Shown one piece after another: positions 40,997 through 54,015 of a stretch of DNA of 64,000 nucleotides. The first letter of the stretch is position 1. Each line of letters opens with the position of its first letter. Source of the stretch: Polaribacter marinaquae (GTDB lineage Bacteria > Bacteroidota > Bacteroidia > Flavobacteriales > Flavobacteriaceae); NCBI RefSeq assembly GCF_038019025.1, contig NZ_CP150496.1, forward strand, positions 2,930,001-2,994,000, read 5' to 3'. Position numbers and translations under genes: made by a program. The notes under the pieces were generated by a model. It did not search any database. It was given only the letters and a program-made list of their open reading frames with translations, and had not been told where the DNA came from.

Positions 40997-43900
40997 TTAT
41001 TTTACATTTAATCTTACACCTTTAGAATGGCTAGTAAACTCTGGTGCATACATGCTTTCTATGGTTGTAATTCCGTTACTAAAACTACCAGCATTGTTAA
41101 CTCTTAAGTCATATTCAAAAACAAAAACCCCTTTAGGTAAATAATCAAAAAAGAAGTTTGTGGCCGCATCTTTAGTGCTTTCATAATAACTTAAATTATC
41201 TTGATATTTGTAACTAGAAATTACATTTATTGGTTCTAAACCAGCAGCTCTCATATCTTTCATGTGAATAAATTCCATATTTCTATCAGAAGATAATTCT
41301 ATTCTAACAGTAATTAAATCACCAACTTTTAATTGACTATTATCTGTAATTTCAATTAACTCTTTTCCTGTGTCAGAATTCACTTTCAAAAATAATTTCT
41401 TAGACAATTTAAGAGGAGTGTTTGCTGCGCTAATTTTATCTAAGTCTTCAAAATACTGCCAATACAAACCAGCCCAAGCAATACCTTTATTCTTTTTACT
41501 AATAGTTACAGTACCCATTTCTTTTGTAATTTCTTTACCAGCCCAAGAAGTTTTAAAGTAACCTGTGCCAGCTTCTATTTTTGCGTTCTCTAACTTTGTT
41601 GGTTCAATTTTATGTTCACCAATTTTAATAGTAACTAACTCTTCGTTATTGTAAGCCCAATCGTTTCCGTTTAAAAGTAAAGCGTAAATTGCTTCGGATG
41701 TTGCCTTGGTTGTTTTCCAGCTATTGGTTTGCTTATTTTTTAACAGCCAAACTTTTAATTTGTCAATTGTTTTGGTGTTATTTTCTAATTCGGAAAAAAC
41801 TTCTACCATTAAAGCTTGTGTTTCAACAGGTGCTTGATAAAAATAATAACCGCTATTATTAGATTTCCAATACATACCTAATTCATCTGAAGTAATAGCA
41901 TTTTCTTTTAATGAATTTAAAATTTTAATTGCTGATGTTTTTTCATTTGTTCTAAATAGATTTAATGCAATTTGCCCTTTAGCATATAAATTAAACTCTG
42001 TCCAATATTTTTTTGATTGTTCTTGATAGTAATTAACAGCTTCTTTTAAAGATGTATTTTTAGCTAAATTTTGATAAAAACTTCGCATGTACAAATACTG
42101 AATTGTAGTATAATCTAGATGATTTTTTTCTAAATAATTTTTATATGCTTTTTCACCTGCAGATTTATTTTTAGATTCTCTCTTTAATTTATCGGCATTT
42201 TCTAAAAGTGTTTTGTGTTTCTTTACAACTTGCCTGTCTAAATAATTAACAGCAGCGTTAATCATTTTTTTTGTATCTGTGTTAAATTGAGCTACACCTA
42301 GTTTTTCTAAATGCCCAAAACCAGTTGCAATATGAAGTGTAATGTAATTATTCTCATATTCTCCGCCTTTAAACCAAGGAAAACCACCAGAACTCTTTTG
42401 CATATCTTTAAGTTTTGCAATGGCTCTTTCTTGCTCGTTTTTCATTTTATTCAAATCGAATAACAATGCAATCCTTTTTTTCTGTTCAGACTCAGATTGT
42501 GCATCTCTTAACCAAGGTGTTTCTTGAATAATTAATGATTTTAATTCTTCATTCTTCTCTAAGTTGCTAAGCAACGCATCAGAAGATTTCCATAGATTAA
42601 ACACTTCTTGAATTCTAGGATTTGAATTCGCAATAAAACTAGCCAAAGTATTTGCATAAAATCTAGAGAAAGTTTGCTCTGAACACTCATACGGATATTC
42701 CATTAAATATGGCAGAGATTGAATTGCATACCAAACTGGGTTAGAGGTTACTTCTAATGTTAATTTATGATTTTTTAAAGTTGTAGAATTATTTTCTCTT
42801 AATTTCTTTAAGGTAAACGTTTTGTTTTCATTAGAATTTACCCAAATTGGTAATGTTTCTGTAACCAGTTTTCTGTTAGATAAAACTGGCAATACTTGTA
42901 GTTCTCCGTCTGAAAAAGAACCGGCTTTCGCTACAATTTTATACTGAACCGCCTGTACAGTTTCCGGAATAAAAATTTTCCAAGAGACATTTGTGTTACC
43001 ATCTTTAGCAACTGTAAAGTTTTTATTTGCACCAATGTTTTGCATTAAAACATCTATTTTTTTATTGGTAATAGCATCTGATAGCTCAAGTTGTGCAATT
43101 CCGTTTAAGGTATTATTTGTTAGGTTGGTAATTTTAGCACTTAAAGTAATTGTGTCCTTTTGTCTTAAAAATCTTGGTGCATTTGGTATTACCATTACTT
43201 CTTTTTGAGTAACAGTTTGCATACTTTTTACAGCATATTTTAAGTCTTTTGTATGTGCTAACAATTGCAATTTCCATCGAGTTAATGCTTCTGGCATTGT
43301 AAAGGTAAAACTTACTTTTCCCTCTTTATCAGTTTTTAACTGTGGATAAAAAAATGCAGTTTCTTTAAAATTCTTACGCGCTTTAATTTGAGATAAATCT
43401 GCAACAGCATTTGTAGTTATAATTATAACACCATTATTTCCTTTCGAGCCATACAAAGCAACTGCTTCAGAATCTTTTAAAACTTGATAACTACTGATGT
43501 TTTCAGTTTTTAATGACTCTAAAACATCTAAAGTACTGATCTTACCGTCAATTACAATTAATGGTTTTTCATTCGAGTTTAAAGAAGAATTTCCTCTAAT
43601 TCTTATTGTTTTATTATCATCAGCAATATTTATTCCTGCGGCTTTTCCGCTTAAAACAGTTGTTATTTCGGCTTCTTCTTGTGGTACGCTTATCGAACCT
43701 GTTCTATCGGATGCTTTTCTTTTTTGAGTACCATAACCTGTAACAACTATTTCATCTAATAATGCTAAATCTGGAATTAACTGAACATTTAATCTAGAAA
43801 AATCTTCTACTTTAACCTCTACACTTTGATAACCAATATATCTGATAGATATGATATCATTTTTTTTAACATCAATTGTAAAGTTACCTTCAAAACCTGT

Positions 43901-46900
43901 GTTTACGCCTTTTGTTTTATTTTTATTAAGAATTGAAACTCCTGGTAAAGGTTCGTTATTTTCATCAGTAATAAAACCAGAAATTGTACCATTAAACGAG
44001 CCAGACTTTGTTATTTTAATCTTTTTTGAATTTAGCTTTTGTCTAATTGTTCTTAGATAACTGTTGTTTAGCCAAGAATTATTATTCAAACTAAACCCAA
44101 ACCAGTTATAGGTAATGTTCTTTATAGTCGGAAAATTTAAATACCTGTTTCTATTATTTGTTACGTTAAAATTATTTACACCAAAGCTTAAGTTTGCATT
44201 ACTAGATTTATACGAGTAATATTTTTTAGTAGCTTTTACTGGATAAAAATACCAATTGTGTGTTTTAAATTCGTCTAAAGAAGCATCGTACATAGAGGCT
44301 AATAATTCTGCAGCAACTTTATCGTTTTTATCATTTTTGATGGTAAAACTCCATGTTTCTTCTTGTCCGGGTCTTAGTTTATCTCTAAAAACATTTGTTT
44401 CAATTTCAATATTACTTTTAGGTTTATCTAAAACATTTACAAGAATACTTCCGCTTTTAAAGTAATTAAAGTTTACAAAATGATATTTAATAGCAAAACC
44501 ACCAATGTCTTCTTTATTTACAGGGATTTTAACCGTTTTAGTAGTGTTTTTTAGATGGATTAGTCTCGTATCTACAATTTTGTAATTTTTTTCTATTTGC
44601 ACAATAATTGTGATGTCTTTAGAAGCAGAACCAATTTTTAAGTTTACTGTTTCACCTTCTTTATACGAGTTTTTATCGGTATTAATTACAAACAACTTAT
44701 TGTCTGCAACTTGTTTTTCTGATGTCGAAAACACCGAAAAGTTAACTTCATCTTTTACTTTTTTACCAAACTTATCTTTGGTTTCTAATAGAGCAATGTA
44801 TTTACCAGATTCCCATTTTTTAAGATTTGATATTTTTATTTTTTTAGAATTTTTAGTGTTAAATTTTTTAGAAAAAGTTAATGCTCCTTTTTGCCAATTG
44901 GCAACATCATCTTCTTTATTTGAGTAAGGATCATTCGGGAACAATCTTTTAAATTCTTCTTTAGAAATTTGCTGATAATCTGGTTCTTGCCAAGGTCTAT
45001 TTCTTAAAGGAGCTTTTGGTGCTTGTAATTTGTATATTTTTAAAGTTCCTTGAGCAGCAGTAAACTGATTGTTTAAGTTATTGGTTTCAATATTAATTAT
45101 TGTTTTCTGCTGATTCTTATCAATATTACTATCCATAGAAATAGAAGCCAATAAACTATGATAACCAACTTTTACAGTGGTTGTGGCACTTCTAGTTTCT
45201 CCATTAATATCAGTTACATCTGCAGTAATTTGATACGTAAAAATTGGTAAATTTTCTTCAGAAGTACTTTTATCTGGTATTGCTTTAAATTTGATAGAGA
45301 AATCTCCAGAACTATCTGTAACAACTTCTCCGTTAGTGATTTCTCGTGATTCTGAGCTGAAGTAAGGTCTTCTCCAAGAATACCAAGACGGAAATTGTGT
45401 TTTTCTTAGTACTCTATAAACAACATTTGCATCGGTAATATTTGCGCCAGAAAAAGCTTTTGCAAAACCATTAACCACAATCGAATCATTAATTTTAAAA
45501 CTTTCTGTTATTAGCTTAAACTCAGTTTTAAATTTTGGTCTTTTGTATTCTTCTACTGCAATATTTGTGTATGCACCATTAAAACGTACGTTTTTAGTGA
45601 TGATTGAATTTGCCTTAACATGAATTTTATAGTTACCTGTTAAACCGTTATTTGGCAATAGAAATTCACCAGCAACACTGCCAAAATCATTTAATTCTAA
45701 AGTTTGAGTTTTTACAATTTGGTTATTTACATCTTTTAAACTTATTTCTACCGTTTTATTATTTACAACCTTTGAAATTTCATTTTCATTCTGAGTTAAA
45801 ATAGTTTTAAAATAAACAACTTGTCCGGGTCTGTAAATACTTCTATCCGTAAAAATAAAAGCCTTAATATCAACATAATCATTCTTATTGTTTACATTAT
45901 TATTTGCTCTATTGTATAAATATGAAGAACCAAAAGTTGCAGCATCATTTTTGGTTTGAACTTTAATTTGAACGTTATTATATCTGCTGTTGCTTTTAAA
46001 AGTTGCAAATCCTTGTTTATCTGTAACTAAGGTTTTGTTGATATATGAACCGTAATTACGTCTAGTATTTTGTAAGTTTATTTTTGCATTTTCAATAGGT
46101 TTTCCAGTATTTCGATCTAAAACTTGATAATTATAAGAGTTATTAAAAGTATTGCTTACCAAAGTTAAATCAGTAACTTGTATCACAGTAGAAGCGTGAA
46201 TAAAATTGGTTTCTATGTCTCTTTTTTCTGATGCAATAATTAAATATTTACCACCATCAAACTTAGGAACAATAGTTTCTGTGGTGTGTTGTAAAAAGTC
46301 AGATTCATTTTTTAAATTACTTATCCACGTTTTTACTTTTGATAGTTTTGAAAGAAAGTTTTTTTTCTTTTGAATATCATAAATATCATTAAATGAGCTT
46401 AACTCACTTTCAGAGACTTTGTAAGCCGAAAAGTAAAGTTTATTTAGGTTTTTGTATAATACTAGAAATCTAGAATTAGACTGAATTGGAATAAATTCTT
46501 CGGAAGTTATGTTTAAAGATGAGTTTAAAATATTTGCTTTTAATACTTTGCATTTTTTTGCAGCTAAACTTTCTGGAAACTTTAAAATAGTTTGGTTACA
46601 CAACTCTAAAGCTTCTTTATTTTTAAAGTGATTTTCTTTTTTTTGAGTATCCTTATAATGCAATGCTTTTTCATTAAAAATCTGTGCTATTTCAAAAGCA
46701 TATAAACCACTAGATTCGTGTAAACTATTATTTTGTTTACTAGTTTGAAGTGTTTTTAAAAGTTCAGCTTTACTGTTTTTAAAAGTTCCGTTGCTCTCTA
46801 CAAATTTTAATCTTTCGATATCAATATGCGCTAGTGCATTTTTTTGATTTTTTTCTGTATGTAATTGTATCAATTTTTGATACAATTTTAAAGCATGAAA

Positions 46901-47629
46901 TTGATTTGAAATACTATCTTTTGATATGATTTCTAAAGAAGAGAAAATTTTTGAATTTTTAATAAAATCGGGATTGTTTATTTCGAATTTATAGGAAGGT
47001 TTATGAATTGAATTTTCGCTTGTATTATAAAATTTTAGTGCAGAATTCGCTAAAAAATCGAATAGAGATGGTTTAAATTGAATAGTTTCATCATCTATAT
47101 TTAAGATATCATTATAATCTGTGATTTTTATTTCTAAAAGTTGCTTATCATTTTGTAAAGAATTATCAAAATGAAATTGTATTTCTTTAAAAATTGAAGC
47201 TAAATCCCAAGTTCTAAAGTCTTTTAAATTGGTTTTTTCTTTAGTAGCAGTTCTATTGTAAAATTTATATCTATTTTGTTTAAAATATTGCCAATATAAA
47301 TTCCCTAAAATATTTTCTAGAATGTTTTTTGTAGGAAATGTTTGATGTGCAATTTGTGCTTTAAATTGATTGATAACCTTTAGCTGTTCATTTTCTTCTA
47401 AAGTAAGAGAAAATTTACTTTTGTAAAACAGCGATTTAATTAATTGCGGTGAATTATTTTCTTTTGCAGCTTTGTTATATATTTTGTCGACAATTTTTAA
47501 GGCTGATTTAGGTAAATCATCCAACTCAAATTTTTCGACATTTAACCATAATTCGTTAAAATTATCTTGAGAATTAACGGTCGTAGAAATCAAAAATATT
47601 GAAAATAAAGTTGTTATAATTTTTTTCAT
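40997..47629 (-). CDS. Alpha-2-macroglobulin family protein with internal SusC-type CarboxypepD_reg and TonB plug domains
   Basis: A 2210-residue exported protein (signal FLISTTVNSQD). The N-terminal ~480 residues are helical. Macroglobulin-type domains follow (about 490-1200; MG2-like FIFTDRSIYRPGQVVYFKT, bait-region neighbourhood). An insertion then has a carboxypeptidase-regulatory domain (about 1213-1290; SGFITDENNEPLPGVSIL) and a TonB-plug-like domain (about 1288-1405; LLDEIVVTGYGTQKRK, RIRGNSSLNSNEKPLIVIDG, GSKGNNGVIIITT). The macroglobulin then resumes (FPEALTRWKLQLLAHT-type region), with the thioester motif CSEQ at Cys1649 and a helical thioester domain to about 1960. Such proteins trap proteases covalently. 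No barrel follows the plug, so it cannot be a transporter. Confidence 0.88.
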   Translation of the reverse strand: MKKIITTLFSIFLISTTVNSQDNFNELWLNVEKFELDDLPKSALKIVDKIYNKAAKENNSPQLIKSLFYKSKFSLTLEENEQLKVINQFKAQIAHQTFPTKNILENILGNLYWQYFKQNRYKFYNRTATKEKTNLKDFRTWDLASIFKEIQFHFDNSLQNDKQLLEIKITDYNDILNIDDETIQFKPSLFDFLANSALKFYNTSENSIHKPSYKFEINNPDFIKNSKIFSSLEIISKDSISNQFHALKLYQKLIQLHTEKNQKNALAHIDIERLKFVESNGTFKNSKAELLKTLQTSKQNNSLHESSGLYAFEIAQIFNEKALHYKDTQKKENHFKNKEALELCNQTILKFPESLAAKKCKVLKANILNSSLNITSEEFIPIQSNSRFLVLYKNLNKLYFSAYKVSESELSSFNDIYDIQKKKNFLSKLSKVKTWISNLKNESDFLQHTTETIVPKFDGGKYLIIASEKRDIETNFIHASTVIQVTDLTLVSNTFNNSYNYQVLDRNTGKPIENAKINLQNTRRNYGSYINKTLVTDKQGFATFKSNSRYNNVQIKVQTKNDAATFGSSYLYNRANNNVNNKNDYVDIKAFIFTDRSIYRPGQVVYFKTILTQNENEISKVVNNKTVEISLKDVNNQIVKTQTLELNDFGSVAGEFLLPNNGLTGNYKIHVKANSIITKNVRFNGAYTNIAVEEYKRPKFKTEFKLITESFKINDSIVVNGFAKAFSGANITDANVVYRVLRKTQFPSWYSWRRPYFSSESREITNGEVVTDSSGDFSIKFKAIPDKSTSEENLPIFTYQITADVTDINGETRSATTTVKVGYHSLLASISMDSNIDKNQQKTIINIETNNLNNQFTAAQGTLKIYKLQAPKAPLRNRPWQEPDYQQISKEEFKRLFPNDPYSNKEDDVANWQKGALTFSKKFNTKNSKKIKISNLKKWESGKYIALLETKDKFGKKVKDEVNFSVFSTSEKQVADNKLFVINTDKNSYKEGETVNLKIGSASKDITIIVQIEKNYKIVDTRLIHLKNTTKTVKIPVNKEDIGGFAIKYHFVNFNYFKSGSILVNVLDKPKSNIEIETNVFRDKLRPGQEETWSFTIKNDKNDKVAAELLASMYDASLDEFKTHNWYFYPVKATKKYYSYKSSNANLSFGVNNFNVTNNRNRYLNFPTIKNITYNWFGFSLNNNSWLNNSYLRTIRQKLNSKKIKITKSGSFNGTISGFITDENNEPLPGVSILNKNKTKGVNTGFEGNFTIDVKKNDIISIRYIGYQSVEVKVEDFSRLNVQLIPDLALLDEIVVTGYGTQKRKASDRTGSISVPQEEAEITTVLSGKAAGINIADDNKTIRIRGNSSLNSNEKPLIVIDGKISTLDVLESLKTENISSYQVLKDSEAVALYGSKGNNGVIIITTNAVADLSQIKARKNFKETAFFYPQLKTDKEGKVSFTFTMPEALTRWKLQLLAHTKDLKYAVKSMQTVTQKEVMVIPNAPRFLRQKDTITLSAKITNLTNNTLNGIAQLELSDAITNKKIDVLMQNIGANKNFTVAKDGNTNVSWKIFIPETVQAVQYKIVAKAGSFSDGELQVLPVLSNRKLVTETLPIWVNSNENKTFTLKKLRENNSTTLKNHKLTLEVTSNPVWYAIQSLPYLMEYPYECSEQTFSRFYANTLASFIANSNPRIQEVFNLWKSSDALLSNLEKNEELKSLIIQETPWLRDAQSESEQKKRIALLFDLNKMKNEQERAIAKLKDMQKSSGGFPWFKGGEYENNYITLHIATGFGHLEKLGVAQFNTDTKKMINAAVNYLDRQVVKKHKTLLENADKLKRESKNKSAGEKAYKNYLEKNHLDYTTIQYLYMRSFYQNLAKNTSLKEAVNYYQEQSKKYWTEFNLYAKGQIALNLFRTNEKTSAIKILNSLKENAITSDELGMYWKSNNSGYYFYQAPVETQALMVEVFSELENNTKTIDKLKVWLLKNKQTNSWKTTKATSEAIYALLLNGNDWAYNNEELVTIKIGEHKIEPTKLENAKIEAGTGYFKTSWAGKEITKEMGTVTISKKNKGIAWAGLYWQYFEDLDKISAANTPLKLSKKLFLKVNSDTGKELIEITDNSQLKVGDLITVRIELSSDRNMEFIHMKDMRAAGLEPINVISSYKYQDNLSYYESTKDAATNFFFDYLPKGVFVFEYDLRVNNAGSFSNGITTIESMYAPEFTSHSKGVRLNVK

Positions 47630-47797: not shown

Positions 47798-49150
47798 ATG
47801 AATATTCATTTTATTGCCATCGGTGGTAGCGCAATGCACAATCTTGCAATAGCATTATACCAAAAAGGATACCAAGTTTCTGGAAGTGATGATACAATTC
47901 ACGATCCGTCTAAATCTAGGTTAGAAAAATATGGTCTATTGCCAAAAGAATTTGGTTGGTTTCCAGAAAAAATAACAAATGAATTAGATGTTATTATTCT
48001 AGGGATGCATGCTAAAAAAGATAATTTAGAATTATTAAAAGCCCAAGAATTAGGGTTAAAAATTTATTCTTATCCAGAATTTTTATATGAGCAATCTAAA
48101 AATAAAACAAGGGTTGTTATTGGTGGATCTCATGGTAAAACAACCATAACTTCTATGATTTTACATGTTTTAAATTATCATGAAAGACAAGTAGATTATA
48201 TGGTTGGTGCACAATTAGAAGGATTTGAAACAATGGTGCATTTAACAGAAGAAAATGATTTTATTGTTTTAGAGGGAGACGAATATTTAAGTTCTCCTAT
48301 AGATATGCGTCCTAAATTTCATTTATACAAGCCTAATATTGCGTTGTTAAGTGGTATTGCTTGGGATCATATTAATGTATTTCCAACTTTTGAAAATTAT
48401 AAAGATCAGTTTCAAATTTTTACTGATTCTATGGTTAATGGAGGAAGTATGGTATACAATATTGAAGATGATAACGTAAAAGATGTTGTAGAATCTTCTG
48501 AAAATCATATAAAAAAATATCCATATGAAACTCCGAAACATTTTATAGAAAACGGTATTACTTTTTTAGAGACAGAAGAAGGAGATTTGCCTTTAGAAAT
48601 TTTCGGAAATCATAATTTACAAAATTTAGCAGGTGCAAAATGGATTTGCCAACACATGGGTGTTGATGAAGATGATTTTTATGAAGCAATTGCTAGTTTT
48701 AAAGGAGCAAGTAAGCGTTTAGAAAAAATTGCAGAAAATAATTCTTCTGTAATCTTTAAAGATTTTGCTCATAGTCCTAGTAAAGTTGCTGCAACTACAA
48801 AAGCTGTTAAAGAGCAATATTCTAACAGAACAGTTTTAGCATGTTTAGAATTGCATACATATTCGAGTTTAAATGCTGAGTTTTTGTCTGAATATAAAGG
48901 AGCATTAGATGCTGCTGATAAAGCAGTTGTATTTTACTCACCAAATGCAGTAAAAATTAAACAGTTAGAAGAAGTAACTTCTGCGCAAATAGCAAATGCC
49001 TTCGAAAGGGAAGATTTAGTTATTTACACTAATCCTTCAGCTTTTAAAGAGTTTTTGTTTAATCAGAATTTAGAAAAAACAGCAGTGGTGTTAATGAGTT
49101 CTGGCAATTATGGTGGCTTAGATTTTGATGAAGTTAAGAATTTGATTTAG
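47798..49150 (+). CDS. mpl: UDP-N-acetylmuramate:L-alanyl-gamma-D-glutamyl-meso-diaminopimelate ligase
   Basis: Mpl (EC 6.3.2.45) reattaches the recycled tripeptide to UDP-MurNAc in peptidoglycan recycling. The 450-residue protein is a Mur ligase: N-terminal Rossmann domain with IHFIAIGGSAMHNLAIAL (MurC-like, but lacking the usual MurC GxGGxGM form), ATP loop GGSHGKTT (109-116), EGDEYLSSPID, and a C-terminal domain with FKDFAHSPSKVAATT. The GDEY...P pattern separates Mpl from MurC. It converges with the nucleotidyltransferase gene; the 3' ends overlap by 17 bases. Confidence 0.92.
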   Translation: MNIHFIAIGGSAMHNLAIALYQKGYQVSGSDDTIHDPSKSRLEKYGLLPKEFGWFPEKITNELDVIILGMHAKKDNLELLKAQELGLKIYSYPEFLYEQSKNKTRVVIGGSHGKTTITSMILHVLNYHERQVDYMVGAQLEGFETMVHLTEENDFIVLEGDEYLSSPIDMRPKFHLYKPNIALLSGIAWDHINVFPTFENYKDQFQIFTDSMVNGGSMVYNIEDDNVKDVVESSENHIKKYPYETPKHFIENGITFLETEEGDLPLEIFGNHNLQNLAGAKWICQHMGVDEDDFYEAIASFKGASKRLEKIAENNSSVIFKDFAHSPSKVAATTKAVKEQYSNRTVLACLELHTYSSLNAEFLSEYKGALDAADKAVVFYSPNAVKIKQLEEVTSAQIANAFEREDLVIYTNPSAFKEFLFNQNLEKTAVVLMSSGNYGGLDFDEVKNLI

Positions 49151-50252
49151 ATTTTGTAATGTTTAGTTGCCTAAGCTTTTCTTTTTGCCAGTTTTTATCT
49201 CGTATTCTATTAAATACCCATTTTCTAAATTCCTTATTTACAATTGATTTTAAAATAATATTTAATCTATTTTTAACGAATAAATAAAATCCAATGTTTT
49301 TATGAACACGTTTTGTATTCACCCTATTTGATATTTGGTTATTAAAAACTTGTAAATACTTTTCAGTTTCCACTGTGTTTTCATACTCTAAGGAAGAAAC
49401 TTTATTAAAGGTAATATAAGTTGAAGCTAAAAAAGAATTTAAAGGGTTCTTTAAATTTTTGAAGTTTTTAAATGCCTCTTTTGCTGTTGTTTTTTTTGAC
49501 AATAGAAATACATCATATGCATTTCTTAGAGCAATGTCTTTAAAATATATTCCATCATCATTTATTTGCTTCGCAATTATAGAAAGAGAAATTTGATCAT
49601 CATAACTTAAAACTGTTATTTCATTTATTTTTAAGAGGTTTTTTTTAACGCTATCATAATTAAACTCACTTGCATATTTTTCAATTAAAAGTTCTTTATG
49701 TATTTCGATTGCAGCTATTCTTTTTTCTTTATGCAATCTTGCATAATGCTTAAATTGTGGGAAATCATAACTTTCTTTACTAACTCGATTATAACCAAAA
49801 CCTTTAATAAGTTTAATTGTATTAATGTAATCGTTTTTTGAAACAATAAAATCAATATCACCAACCATTCTTTCTGCAATGTCGGCATACAAACCTTCTA
49901 GTAAATTACCGGTTCCTTTTAAGAAAATTGGCGTAATATCATTTGCAAGTAAAAGACTATTAATTTCTTTTGCTTGTTTTATAATTTGTTTGTTTCTTTC
50001 CCTGTTTAAATCGGTTATATGAACCATATAATTTACCAATTCTTCAGGTAAATATTGTAATAGATTCACTCTTTTTAGATTGCAATACAATGCAGGGAAA
50101 ACAAAATGTTGCGTACTTACTTTAACAACAGAATCCCAATCTATTTCAGTGTTTTTTAATGAATCCTCAATTTCGATTCGGTTCTTTTTTTCTAATGTTA
50201 TTGTTAAACATTTGGCTATAAAAAAGACTGTTTCTTTATAATTCATTTTCAA
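49134..50252 (-). CDS. Nucleotidyltransferase-fold protein (PF14907-like) of the peptide cluster
   Basis: The 372-residue protein contains LKGTGNLLEGLY (111-122) followed by RMVGDIDFIV (128-137), the K-G and G-D-x-D signature of the uncharacterised nucleotidyltransferase family found in several peptide-biosynthesis and exopolysaccharide clusters. Asp132 and Asp134 are the likely metal ligands. No signal or membrane segment. Its start overlaps the 3' end of the kinase gene by 17 bases, so the two are translated together. A role in modifying the small peptide encoded upstream, or in using its phosphate, is inferred. Confidence 0.75.
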   Translation of the reverse strand: MKMNYKETVFFIAKCLTITLEKKNRIEIEDSLKNTEIDWDSVVKVSTQHFVFPALYCNLKRVNLLQYLPEELVNYMVHITDLNRERNKQIIKQAKEINSLLLANDITPIFLKGTGNLLEGLYADIAERMVGDIDFIVSKNDYINTIKLIKGFGYNRVSKESYDFPQFKHYARLHKEKRIAAIEIHKELLIEKYASEFNYDSVKKNLLKINEITVLSYDDQISLSIIAKQINDDGIYFKDIALRNAYDVFLLSKKTTAKEAFKNFKNLKNPLNSFLASTYITFNKVSSLEYENTVETEKYLQVFNNQISNRVNTKRVHKNIGFYLFVKNRLNIILKSIVNKEFRKWVFNRIRDKNWQKEKLRQLNITKSKSNS

Positions 50253-51375
50253 AAATTTTAGAAACTTTATTTATCATTTTTTTATTATCAGAATATGTAA
50301 TTTGATAACAATTTAAGTTCGAAAACCAATCTAAAAATAATTTAGAGTTTTCTTTTATTGGCGAAAGCCAAGAATCTGGCACTAATTGCTGAAAAGCTTC
50401 AATCTTAGAAATTTTACTAAAAGAGATATCACTATCTTTTTCATATTTAATAAATACTAAATCTTTACATGGTAAATGTGCTAAAAAGTTACTATTCTTT
50501 GGCTCTAAGTAGCGAACTATTTTATTTAGTCTTTTAAAATGATATTCTGCAGAGTTTTCTAATTCCGGATAAAAAGGGAGTAGTGTTTTTAAGCTGTTTT
50601 TTTTGATTGAAATTGATGCAGGAAAACTAAAAACTTCATTTTTTTCTATATCGATCGGCACAAAATCATCAGCTAAACAAGTATACCCGTTTGCTTGTAA
50701 TAAAGCTAAAGAAGTACTTTTACCGTTACCTGAGTCTCCTAAAAACAAAATAGTTTTTTTACCGTTAGAAACAGCAGAGGCGTGAAAAACACCCATCCAT
50801 TCATTTTCTTTTTTCTGATGGATTTTTTGAATTAATTCCATTGAAAATTTTCCTTGAAAATAATGAACCTCTTTTTTGTTCCAAGCACCAATAAAGTTGT
50901 TGTCAACATAAAAAAAGATAAAACTATTATTTAGAAAGACTGTAAATGTAGTGTGTATTTTATCTGAGATGGTAGTTTCTAAATGCGCAAATTTAGGATG
51001 AACTAAATACAGTTCATATTCTGAGTTGAATTCAACTTTATAAACTTCATTATTTATTTTGTAATACTTTGTGAACTCGAAAGAAGTTGGTTTCGTAACA
51101 TCTCTATAGTCGTTAACAATTGTATTATTAATAATAGATTTATTGGCATAAATTTTCTTTTCAAGGTCTAAAATAAAATCTATTGTTTTATCCAAAGGCA
51201 CCTGTAGTTTTTTAGCTAATGGAGTTGCTATTTCTTTCACAGAAATTCCTTTACTTAATCGTTTTAAAATATCTGCTGTTGTATTCTCTAATACTAGATA
51301 TTCGTTACTATTTTTAAACCAAACAATTGTTTTGTCTTCTATGGTTTTAAGTAATAATTCAGATTGATTTTTCAT
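50236..51375 (-). CDS. PqqD-like domain fused to HPr-kinase/phosphorylase-like kinase
   Basis: The first ~80 residues (WFKNSNEYLVLENTTADILK, GISVKEIATPLAKKL) have the pattern of PqqD domains, which bind leader peptides of ribosomal peptides. The C-terminal part has the HprK core: HASAV (His198), Walker A GDSGNGKST (213-221) and LADDF (Asp236/Asp237). Similar kinases phosphorylate the precursor of some lasso peptides; that function is known for relatives, not for this one. No phosphorylase-specific region is obvious. A fused recognition domain with a kinase, next to a 52-residue peptide gene, suggests peptide phosphorylation. Confidence 0.78.
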   Translation of the reverse strand: MKNQSELLLKTIEDKTIVWFKNSNEYLVLENTTADILKRLSKGISVKEIATPLAKKLQVPLDKTIDFILDLEKKIYANKSIINNTIVNDYRDVTKPTSFEFTKYYKINNEVYKVEFNSEYELYLVHPKFAHLETTISDKIHTTFTVFLNNSFIFFYVDNNFIGAWNKKEVHYFQGKFSMELIQKIHQKKENEWMGVFHASAVSNGKKTILFLGDSGNGKSTSLALLQANGYTCLADDFVPIDIEKNEVFSFPASISIKKNSLKTLLPFYPELENSAEYHFKRLNKIVRYLEPKNSNFLAHLPCKDLVFIKYEKDSDISFSKISKIEAFQQLVPDSWLSPIKENSKLFLDWFSNLNCYQITYSDNKKMINKVSKIFENEL

Positions 51376-51413
51376 GAAAAATAAATGTAGGTAATTTCTA
51401 AATGATATTCAAT

Positions 51414-51441
51414 AAAAAACGCCTCAATAAAATTGAAGCGT
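51414..51441 (-). terminator. Terminator between the small peptide gene and the kinase gene
   Basis: Read on the minus strand, ACGCTTCAAT and ATTGAGGCGT form a ten-base-pair stem (one G-U pair) around a three-base loop, followed by five Ts. It stands 24 bases past the peptide stop codon and 39 bases before the kinase start. It would let the peptide be made in excess over the kinase and nucleotidyltransferase, with these expressed by read-through. The hairpin is perfect only in the minus-strand RNA, which supports the direction. Confidence 0.8.
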
Positions 51442-51464
51442 TTTAATTGTTTTAAAATTTCAGT

Positions 51465-51623
51465 TTAAAATCCTACTCCAGGTTTTTCTGGACTTTGTGC
51501 TTGCGCTTTTTGAGGATTTAAAATCATGTAAGTTCCCAAGGCAGTTAAAGCAGTATATTTACCATAATTACCTATTTTTTTAATAGCTTCTTTACGAGTA
51601 ATTTTTGTTTCGTTTTTTTTCAT
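51465..51623 (-). CDS. Candidate 52-residue precursor peptide
   Basis: ATG at 51623 to TAA at 51465-51467. The N-terminal part is basic (MKKNETKITRKEAIKK), then comes a hydrophobic stretch (YTALTALGTYMIL), an Ala-Gln-Ala site, and a tail QSPEKPGVGF. The layout is signal-peptide-like with a ten-residue mature product, or a leader plus core. The tail has one Ser (residue 44) and one Glu. The gene lies 25 bases after the T9SS protein gene on the same strand and is followed by a terminator and the PqqD-kinase gene. I know of no named family. It is coding-like and well placed, but its product is not proven. Confidence 0.72.
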   Translation of the reverse strand: MKKNETKITRKEAIKKIGNYGKYTALTALGTYMILNPQKAQAQSPEKPGVGF

Positions 51624-51648
51624 GGTTTAATGTTTTATCTCTAAAGAA

Positions 51649-54015
51649 TTATTCTAAAATTATCTTTTTATTAATGCTATTAGAAAGTGTTTCTAATTTT
51701 ACAATATATACACCACTCGTTAAATTTGGTAGTGCAACATTTTTTGTGTCAACAATGTTTAGCTCTTTCTTTAAAACATTTTTACCTAAGATATTAAAAA
51801 TTGAAATGTTTACTTTTTCATTATTAAACCCTGTTAATTTTAAGTTAGTATTGCTTGTTTGAAAAATTGAAATATTACTAACCAATACATTTTCTACATT
51901 TAGAGCTTCGTTTGTCTTTGTATGAATAAAAAAACGATCATCAGTATTATTAGTTTTAACAGTAGCAATATAATTAGAAGAAGTATCTAGTAGCGTAAAT
52001 GTGCCTGTTAATCTATCTTCTAAATAAATGTTATGTTCTTTTGGTAAATTAATTCCGTTTGCAGAAAATGTAATTTCTGAATCAGCAGGTGCATTAACAC
52101 CAACAGGAATAACCATGGAATCAAAATTGGATTTTGGTAAAGTTTGAATTGCTAATTTTTGATTGCTTTCTTCTGATACTAATTTAGTGTATATTGTAAA
52201 AGAATCACCGGCACCTGTAAAAATTGAACTATCATAACCGTTGTCAAAACCTGTTGTTTTTTCAGCATAATAATAGATAGAAGTATTTGAGGTTCTGCCA
52301 TTGTTTGTAATACTTAAATTAATCTCTGGTCTTAAATTTTCTAATTTATTAAATGTTCCTGTTGTTTGATGACTTTGATCTGCTTGTTTAAACTTAAAAT
52401 CACCACCAGTATTGCTAGATTTTACAAAGAAACTTTGTGCCGGAGCTATGTATAGAGATGGTCTTTGATTTGTTCCGGTTCCTACAGTTGTAGTTTGGTT
52501 AACTGTAATATAAGAAGCAGTAGTTTTATCCCAAATCCAAAGTGTTTCCTCTTCTAATACTCCAGAATTTTCTGATAATAAATTAGTCGAATTTGCAGCA
52601 GTATTAAAAGGTAAATACGCAGGATAAGGATTTCCTACCAAGTTAAAAGCATTTCCTGAAGTGGCTGTTTTGTCGGTAATTGTAATTGAAACATCAGAAG
52701 TAGGTGCATCACCTTTAAACCCTAAGTTTCCTTTCGCAGTATCAGAATTTAAAGCAGAATTTGGTAAAACACTGTATCCTTTACCTTGTTCCATTGTTAG
52801 AACTGCGCTTGTATTGACAACATCAACTTCAGCTTTAGAATAATAATCCCAACGAAGATTAGAATCAGATTGAGAATTATCGTAAAATGCGATTCCGTAG
52901 TTTGTTGCACTTTGTTGCAAAGCATTAAAAACAGCAAAATTTCCATCTCCGGTGTTACCATCTATTAATTCTCCAACGGTAGGAGAAGAGATTAAACTCC
53001 ATTCAGATGTATCGTCAATAAAAGTTTCTGTAAAATAGAAAAAAGAATTATCATCAACAGAAGTATAACTTCCATTTAAAATTAGGGTTGCAGCATCTAA
53101 AGTTTTTGATGCAGTTACTTTAGATTCTAAATACAAAGAGCTTCCTGCATTAACTGTAACATTTCCATATACAGTTAAACTTCCAGATAATACAGATAAT
53201 CCATCAGCTTCAGAAATTGATAAATTACCAACTTCTGCATTAGTAGATGTGCTAATTTCAGGTGCATTCGGCATTAAATCCGGAATTATAACTAAAGAAC
53301 TAGAATTAGGAACGCCATTATCCCAATTTAAAGGGTCAGTCCATGAAGAACTTATAGCACCTAACCAATTTGTGGTTAATATTGTAAAAGATTCTTTAGA
53401 AATAGGTAAAGTAGCTTCTCCATCTCCAGTGTTGTGTGTCCAATTATTTTTATCTATCATAAGATTAAAATAATTTGAATACAATGCTTCTGTAGATCTT
53501 GAACCATTATAAAATCCTCCGTCAGGACTACTAACAGGATTAAATTCCATAAAATTAACTCCAGCAGTTAAACCAGTACCAGTTAATTCTCCACTTAAAT
53601 TTCCATTTTTTAAACCTGTTAAATAAGTAGTTGGTGTATCTTTATCAGTCCCTAAATAAACAAAAACTGCTTCACCGCTTGCAGACCAATTAAAAGCTCC
53701 ACTTTTTTCTATAGTTCCTTTCGAAACCCCTAATAAAGGGTTTAATGTGGCATCAACATCTGTAAATACTGTGATACTTCCAGATTTTATAACATTGCTT
53801 CCAGTGTTCCAAGTTATAAAACCAGAGCCATCTTTTATATATATTATTGTATTTGGAGAAAGATCTACTAAGTTAACTAAAGAAAAATCTGTATCTCCGT
53901 CTGCATTAAATGCTGTGAAAGCAATATCACCAGTAGTTTGAGAATTTACAGAATTAACTGTAAATACTGTTAAAATAAAAAGGCAGAAAACCTTTAAAAA
54001 GTACTTTTGTTTCAT
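51649..54015 (-). CDS. T9SS-secreted surface protein with C-terminal sorting domain
   Basis: A 788-residue exported protein (signal FILTVFTVNSVNSQT). The N-terminal ~200 residues are a beta-rich domain (AFTAFNADGDTDFSLVNLVD), followed by a G8-like/repetitive region (WNTGSNVI, WTDPLNWDNGVPNSSS, LSGSLTVYGNVTVNAGSSL) and beta-sandwich segments. The C-terminus has the type A sorting signature: NVLVSNISIFQTSNTNLKL, VNISIFNILGKNVLKKEL and LTSGVYIVKLETLSNSINKKII. It is secreted through the type IX system and anchored at the surface. Function is unknown. It is 25 bases upstream of the small peptide gene, so both are probably on one transcript. Confidence 0.85.
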   Translation of the reverse strand: MKQKYFLKVFCLFILTVFTVNSVNSQTTGDIAFTAFNADGDTDFSLVNLVDLSPNTIIYIKDGSGFITWNTGSNVIKSGSITVFTDVDATLNPLLGVSKGTIEKSGAFNWSASGEAVFVYLGTDKDTPTTYLTGLKNGNLSGELTGTGLTAGVNFMEFNPVSSPDGGFYNGSRSTEALYSNYFNLMIDKNNWTHNTGDGEATLPISKESFTILTTNWLGAISSSWTDPLNWDNGVPNSSSLVIIPDLMPNAPEISTSTNAEVGNLSISEADGLSVLSGSLTVYGNVTVNAGSSLYLESKVTASKTLDAATLILNGSYTSVDDNSFFYFTETFIDDTSEWSLISSPTVGELIDGNTGDGNFAVFNALQQSATNYGIAFYDNSQSDSNLRWDYYSKAEVDVVNTSAVLTMEQGKGYSVLPNSALNSDTAKGNLGFKGDAPTSDVSITITDKTATSGNAFNLVGNPYPAYLPFNTAANSTNLLSENSGVLEEETLWIWDKTTASYITVNQTTTVGTGTNQRPSLYIAPAQSFFVKSSNTGGDFKFKQADQSHQTTGTFNKLENLRPEINLSITNNGRTSNTSIYYYAEKTTGFDNGYDSSIFTGAGDSFTIYTKLVSEESNQKLAIQTLPKSNFDSMVIPVGVNAPADSEITFSANGINLPKEHNIYLEDRLTGTFTLLDTSSNYIATVKTNNTDDRFFIHTKTNEALNVENVLVSNISIFQTSNTNLKLTGFNNEKVNISIFNILGKNVLKKELNIVDTKNVALPNLTSGVYIVKLETLSNSINKKIILE

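Follow-up and report, generated by a model that had tools for sequence, protein, structure and literature searches.

Introduction

The closest described counterparts of the enzymes considered here tailor lasso peptides. The kinase BsfK adds a phosphate to Ser3 of its core peptide, a reaction accelerated by BsfB1, a recognition element (RRE) for ribosomally synthesized and post-translationally modified peptides (RiPPs), and eight residues form a conserved motif of lasso-peptide kinases (PMC10368454). In pseudomycoidin, the C-terminal serine becomes phosphoglycosylated through two enzymes, a kinase that phosphorylates it and a nucleotidyltransferase that attaches one or two hexoses (review PMC8498205). 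In the present work, a locus of Polaribacter marinaquae was analysed in which enzymes of these kinds stand beside a short peptide and a surface protein of the type IX secretion system (T9SS). The locus lies in a stretch of 64,000 nucleotides, hereafter the window (C1:2930001-2994000 of the single 3.17-Mb contig of this genome, G000). It resembles lasso-peptide tailoring (BsfK/BsfB1/bsfN, paeninodin, pseudomycoidin) in its kinds of enzymes, in the catalytic motif of BsfK, in a conserved core serine and in a PqqD-type domain. It differs in that the PqqD-like domain is fused to the kinase, and in that the precursors are dispersed, are paired with T9SS cargo and have a leader resembling a secretion signal.

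Two features of T9SS are also relevant. Type B cargo is accompanied by a PorP/SprF-like shuttle whose gene lies directly downstream and is repeated in the genome (PMC12618676); the same layout was found here, but the cargo is of type A and the partner is a short peptide, not a beta-barrel. Type A cargo is attached by the sortase-type enzyme PorU in a step that depends on the C-terminal sorting domain (CTD) and at which a peptide could act, although the accessible portion of the article describing it mentions no encoded peptide (PMC10202324). According to the same source, it is unsolved how PorU chooses cargo for release or for attachment, and the kinases behind the phosphorylated T9SS cargo of P. 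gingivalis are unidentified (PMC10202324).

No description of the present system was found in the openly accessible literature (subscription papers and preprints lay outside the scope of the search). In that literature, no paper joined type IX secretion with PqqD or contained HprK-related kinase family terms, and the papers joining RRE and HPr kinase concerned lasso peptides. The accessible portion of a 2025 paper on RREs contains no mention of a kinase or of HprK (PMC12710340).

Results

Arrangement of the locus

The four open reading frames (ORFs) on which the original prediction was built were confirmed at their coordinates on the minus strand. The features of the locus are as follows.

51649..54015, minus strand: T9SS type A cargo protein of 788 aa (PF18962 and TIGR04183 over cut-off), with a variable passenger as its N-terminal part
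51649..53088, minus strand: C-terminal module of ~480 aa common to paired cargo, border approximate (pairwise coverage, 24 proteins)
51652..51978, minus strand: sorting domain (CTD) of the peptide-paired subtype (paired-CTD profile scores)
51465..51623, minus strand: precursor-like peptide of 52 aa, leader ITRKEAIKK...NPQKAQA, then QSPEKPGVGF (ORF, alignment, pN/pS)
51492..51494, minus strand: codon of Ser44, the proposed modification site (invariant among the aligned copies)
51416..51444, minus strand: hairpin followed by a T run, a probable terminator separating peptide from kinase (-16.2 kcal/mol, z -7.1)
50236..51375, minus strand: PqqD-HprK kinase of 379 aa (profile matches, motif alignment, HprK structures)
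51118..51375, minus strand: PqqD-like (RRE) N-terminal domain of the kinase, ~residues 1-86 (profile-profile comparison)
50239..50808, minus strand: HprK-type catalytic domain, ~residues 190-379, with H198, G213xSGxGKST, D236 and D237 (alignment, HprK matches in the PDB)
49134..50252, minus strand: NTP_transf_5 nucleotidyltransferase, ATG start probably at 50246 (PF14907, D131xD133)

The arrangement is a dispersed family of pairs, each consisting of a T9SS cargo gene and a peptide gene, for which there is usually a single kinase and a single nucleotidyltransferase. The original prediction had treated the four genes as one compact same-strand unit. Their coordinates and strand were correct, but they do not form a single four-gene cluster: the pairs are dispersed, and the terminator-like hairpin splits the locus into halves. 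Because this strong hairpin with its T run sits between the peptide and the kinase, the T9SS gene and the peptide gene probably form one transcript and the kinase and nucleotidyltransferase genes another. A consensus terminator scan did not flag the hairpin.

Pairing of the peptide with T9SS cargo

The cargo protein of the window matched PF18962 with 33.2 bits (cut-off 27) and TIGR04183 with 35 bits (cut-off 23). The fetched loci contain 92 distinct peptide places, and an upstream ORF on the same strand was in view at 90 of them. From that ORF to the point where the profile match begins, the gap was at most 46 bases in 62 of these 90. TIGR04183 was matched at E 0.01 or better by 82 of the 88 distinct ORFs upstream of peptides and was not matched by the other six. 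Since these 88 ORFs had partly been picked near kinases, all peptide copies of four genomes, including those far from the kinase, were checked as well. Directly behind a CTD gene stood 36 of the 38 copies, with one behind a masked stretch and one behind another ORF; the CTDs in this check were called by a profile from A4, which contained a few of those sequences. The tie to T9SS surface proteins that had been suggested from the window is supported.

The own genome has 31 CTDs over the cut-off, and all three of its peptides stand behind a CTD gene. When a profile was made from 49 paired CTDs, with the own genome and its sister excluded, scores of 105, 115 and 127 bits were obtained for the three paired CTDs, and none of the 28 unpaired ones exceeded 64.5. 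The CTD of the window scored 107.8 bits against the paired-CTD profile A7 and 105.5 bits against the profile without own-genome sequences. In a second search of the own genome, with a profile that included G001 sequences, three CTDs were found at 108-129 bits and the rest at 62 or below. Elsewhere, no CTD scored above 56 in G019 or above 39.2 in two genomes of another family, and three exceeded 75 in G010. G017 gave no CTD match whatever and so is uninformative on the subtype.

The shared part of the cargo was delimited by comparison of 24 paired cargo proteins, in which pairwise coverage stood at 0.99 for the C-terminal 400 aa, dropped to 0.63 in the 400-550 aa range and lay at 0.11-0.12 beyond. 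A Pfam scan of the ~480-aa module returned only Por_Secre_tail. Of 19 passengers scanned, 14 had adhesin-like domains at E 0.001 or better, nine of them over the curated cut-off; the kinds were lamin tail, Calx-beta, Ig-like, ricin-like and YDG. The passenger of the window cargo had no Pfam match at 0.001. The tie to the cargo consists of the shared C-terminal module and the sorting-domain subtype, while the passengers vary.

Co-occurrence of peptide, kinase and nucleotidyltransferase

Peptide, kinase and nucleotidyltransferase mostly occurred together. Of 97 relatives searched, 52 gave a kinase match and 52 a peptide match, every one of them belonging to the own genus, and the nucleotidyltransferase was matched in 51 of the 97. 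Across the 58 genomes of the genus, including the own genome, both peptide and kinase were present in 50, the kinase only in two, the peptide only in two and neither in four. Of 299 Flavobacteriaceae genomes drawn, 31 had a kinase match, which was strong in 28 and weak in three (1e-8, 6e-4 and 7e-4). The peptide was matched in all 28 genomes with a strong kinase match, in two of the 271 others and in none of the three with a weak one. In the two peptide-only genomes of this draw, the match has stops (G345) or is frame-shifted (G363). Fisher's test gave p 2e-37, or 1e-33 when the three weak matches were counted, values that are too small owing to the relatedness of the genomes.

As a check, the original prediction had proposed asking whether a short ORF with a PGxGF-like tail recurs beside homologs of the kinase. 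Within the fetched stretches, such a peptide was matched near the kinase at 35 of 55 own-genus loci (a few copies being decayed) and at 24 of the 25 loci of other genera with a strong kinase match; at one of these 25, L138, the kinase frame is split. No peptide match was found in the fetched stretch of the further locus L142 (0 of 1), nor in those of L140 and L141, which have weak kinase matches.

Properties of the peptide family

The peptide was aligned in 123 distinct copies out of 149 matches of at least 55 bits. One serine, Ser44 of the window peptide, was present in 123 of 123. The ratio of non-synonymous to synonymous differences (pN/pS), pooled over 1275 non-independent pairs, was 0.16, with 0.12 for the leader and 0.32 for the C-terminal part. 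This ratio places the peptide in a family under purifying selection. Its leader and core are conserved, and the sequence is precursor-like, as had been noted; the random substitutions and stops that would have spoken against the prediction were not found, save in a few decayed copies. Up to 17 peptide copies occur per genome, which usually has one kinase (two in G023).

The leader consists of a basic start, a hydrophobic stretch and an AxA ahead of the core. In the motif preceding the hydrophobic stretch, the first residue was R in 120 of 121 copies and the next was K in 116, N in four and T in one, never R. Export of the peptide by the twin-arginine (Tat) route is therefore disfavoured, since the motif is RK and a twin arginine is never present. 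The cores of all 88 own-genus peptides differed less within genomes (2.09 differences) than between them (3.43), relatedness being uncontrolled in this comparison.

Several copies depart from the common form. Frame-shifted, truncated or stop-containing copies were seen at L035, L050, L074, L083, L184 and L185. Much longer C-terminal tails, of up to ~50 residues past the serine and in some cases rich in Gly, Pro or Lys, were seen at L079, L178, L119, L121 and L123. A 2260-aa frame of G002 containing one peptide was considered as a fusion and rejected, being a masked stretch read through.

The kinase

The kinase carries the Walker A motif GDSGNGKST. Its catalytic domain is shared with HprK_rel_A (TIGR04352), a model that does not span the N-terminal domain and that the window kinase matched with 55.6 bits, under the curated cut-off of 200. 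This catalytic-domain match was present at E 0.01 or better in all 43 kinase homologs aligned (of 77 extracted). Residues H198, S200, G213, S215, G216, G218, K219, S220, T221, D236 and D237 did not vary among the 43. Comparison with BsfK showed that H198, G213, G216, G218, K219, S220, D236 and D237 equal H148, G163, G166, G168, K169, S170, D186 and D187 of that enzyme in both identity and spacing. When the catalytic part was used in a sequence search of the PDB, HprK entries were matched.

Comparison of sequence profiles indicates that the N-terminus of the kinase is PqqD-like, as had been proposed. Against a profile of 20 Bacteroidia PqqD proteins, hhalign gave a probability of 91.3 percent (P 9.6e-7) with a colinear match; other settings gave 85.3 percent, the whole kinase 77.1 percent and six controls at most 0.1 percent. 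Single-sequence hidden Markov models pointed the same way but more weakly, with WgkC matched in 16 of 37, the lasso PqqD model in 11 of 37 and Pfam PqqD in seven of 37. A PDB sequence search with this domain returned nothing meaningful, the lasso RRE TfuB1 appearing only at E 0.87. PqqD-like domains normally bind peptide leaders.

The kinase of Polaribacter sp. BM10 shares 97 percent identity with the window kinase. When named genomes were scanned with the kinase alignment, 145 related loci were obtained, and the best 80 of these belonged to Polaribacter, Tenacibaculum, Lutibacter, Aequorivita, Ulvibacter, Flavobacterium, other Flavobacteriaceae and one Bacteroidia bacterium. In a class-wide draw of 396 genomes, few of them Flavobacteriaceae, full-length kinase matches were limited to three genomes of the own genus; the remaining matches were partial and covered mostly the P-loop region. 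In other Bacteroidia (L280, L283, L285, L286 and L288), HprK-like kinases of ~300 aa lie beside ORFs whose starts, the only part compared, are sulfotransferase-like or asparagine-synthetase-like, and some of these loci carry a PqqD gene on the same contig. They are probably lasso-type or related clusters.

The nucleotidyltransferase and neighbouring genes

The nucleotidyltransferase that had been recognised next to the kinase matched PF14907 (NTP_transf_5) with 122.2 bits, over a gathering cut-off of 31.2. Residues D131xD133, E182 and H184 were kept in 30 aligned nucleotidyltransferases. The reported overlap of 17 bases with the kinase gene holds if a TTG start is used. Because the consensus start of the homologs is MxYKET, the sequence suggests a start at ATG 50246, with which the overlap is 11 bases. 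In G028, kinase and nucleotidyltransferase form one fused ORF of 737 aa (L066 4900-7104). The copy beside the kinase is absent or broken in G005, G006, G016, G041, G047, G050 and G054, each of which carries a copy at another place, and the only copies in G019 and G010 contain stops. A PDB sequence search with the nucleotidyltransferase gave nothing meaningful.

In G048, the subtype CTD (G048:C20:1319-2859) lies directly upstream of a nucleotidyltransferase. At 12 of the 25 kinase loci of other genera (L120-L135), a gene for an outer-membrane beta-barrel-like protein of ~190 aa lies directly behind the nucleotidyltransferase on the same strand; at L134, a related beta-barrel-like ORF lies on the opposite strand. 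In the family draw, matches to this gene below 1e-37, a threshold set post hoc, were found in 20 genomes, 18 of which have a strong kinase match. No match of that strength was found in G000, G020 and G368 of the own genus.

As had been stated in the original prediction, neither an asparagine-synthetase-like lasso cyclase nor a B2-type leader protease was present among the neighbouring ORFs or the recurrent neighbours, these being the genes inspected rather than the whole genome. A convergent gene of the Mur-ligase type lies on the plus strand (47798-49150) and shares 17 bases with the end of the nucleotidyltransferase gene (49134-49150). Further on, a 2210-aa ORF (40997-47629, minus strand), which we take to be alpha-2-macroglobulin-like, contains an inserted stretch that by eye reads like a carboxypeptidase-regulatory and TonB-plug region.

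Discussion

There is a somewhat better than even case that the locus belongs to a RiPP-type modification system with dispersed precursors, each of which has its gene behind that of a T9SS surface protein from a single class. The PqqD-like domain would most likely bind and hold the conserved leader, and the HprK-type domain would probably phosphorylate the invariant serine. The nucleotidyltransferase might then put a further group on the phosphate, most likely a hexose as in pseudomycoidin, or else a nucleotide, a step that we find plausible but slightly doubtful. The phosphorylated or nucleotidylated product that the original prediction named as a possibility is thus still putative. The leader may also serve export and be cut after AxA; this is only mildly favoured because the hydrophobic stretch is weak. 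Finally, the product of ~10 residues could, as a tentative suggestion, act together with the co-expressed cargo once in the envelope, at a CTD-dependent step of attachment or assembly. This is the most economical guess, because the tie is to the CTD subtype and the module while the passengers vary.

A more specific version is rather unlikely, namely that the phosphoglycosylated, exported decapeptide is an encoded attachment group which PorU joins to the C-terminus of subtype-CTD cargo, where it would replace or bridge lipopolysaccharide. Attachment of the peptide to cargo is permitted because the PorU intermediate can be resolved by short peptides acting as nucleophile (PMC10202324). If true, this would amount to a RiPP serving as a tag for surface proteins.

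A number of observations weigh against the proposed modification system. Kinase without a peptide match occurs in G019 and G032, and peptide without a kinase match in G010 and G012; no peptide was found near the kinase at 20 of the 55 own-genus loci, and the relatedness of the genomes inflates the association. Kinase and peptide but no nucleotidyltransferase were matched in G030, G031 and G052 (completeness 53, 57 and 80 percent). Among the CTDs of G001, a genome with sequences in the profile used, nine reach 75 bits or more; six of these precede a peptide and three have no peptide match behind them. Another peptide of this genome, the seventh, comes after a CTD that scores only 46.5 bits. G048 (83 percent complete) has one subtype CTD at 141.5 bits, yet neither kinase nor peptide was matched there. 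As to the enzymes and the peptide, the HprK_rel_A score and the single-sequence PqqD scores lie under their curated cut-offs, and Ser44 is one of several invariant residues, since three leader positions are likewise present in 123 of 123 copies. The best 13-residue Kyte-Doolittle mean of the hydrophobic stretch is only 1.25, which is low for a Sec signal; together with RK in place of RR, this means that the leader does not fix the export route. If each genome had one receptor, its cores might be expected to have become uniform; in four genomes this was not so (2.10 differences within and 2.00 between, p 0.64), and the idea was rejected for them.

One rival reading, which is unlikely, gives the peptide an independent function: it would be a modified RiPP secreted as a signal or an antimicrobial, and the T9SS genes would merely share its transcript. 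The likeness of the enzyme set to lasso-peptide tailoring, the mature part of ~10 residues and the constrained sequence would all suit such a product, but a standalone peptide does not account for up to 17 copies per genome, nearly all of those checked standing behind CTD genes, or for their association with a particular CTD subtype and a shared module. Nor was a recurrent transporter or immunity gene found at the loci of the own or other genera, save the small barrel at 12 of 25. Somewhat less likely again is a role of the peptide as an unmodified chaperone or secretion pilot of the cargo, with the kinase and nucleotidyltransferase regulating or serving something else. Its direct pairing with cargo recalls type B cargo with PorP/SprF-like partners (PMC12618676), whereas the strict tie of peptide to kinase over the 299 genomes and the invariant serine beside a serine-kinase-type enzyme speak against such a role. 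A chaperone specific for individual cargo is disfavoured, the C-terminal part of the peptide staying alike behind unlike passengers.

The kinase and nucleotidyltransferase might instead modify the T9SS cargo itself, with the peptide as a co-translated regulator or recognition adaptor. Cargo subtype and system do go together, and T9SS cargo of P. gingivalis is known to be phosphorylated (PMC10202324). This idea is nevertheless distinctly improbable, given that the leader is the most conserved part of the peptide and that leaders are what PqqD-like domains usually bind. The main non-functional explanation of the subtype tie is that the CTD subtype and the peptide could have spread by joint duplication, the module, subtype and peptide forming a cassette without a shared step and the peptide being made and modified independently of the cargo. 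A shared module and CTD are the expected remnant of an ancestral duplication with passenger swapping, and the three high-scoring CTDs of G001 without a peptide behind them fit as well. The pairing persists, however, in other genera, where the CTDs have little similarity, and this explanation is regarded as the least probable of the four.

The proposed system of dispersed, modified precursors may represent an undescribed mechanism by which surface proteins are finished or anchored. The tie of kinase, nucleotidyltransferase and peptide to one sorting-domain subtype makes such a special finishing step testable. With this system, the reach of RiPP-type modification would extend beyond standalone products to the accessories of a secretion system, in which up to 17 precursors are served by a usually single kinase.

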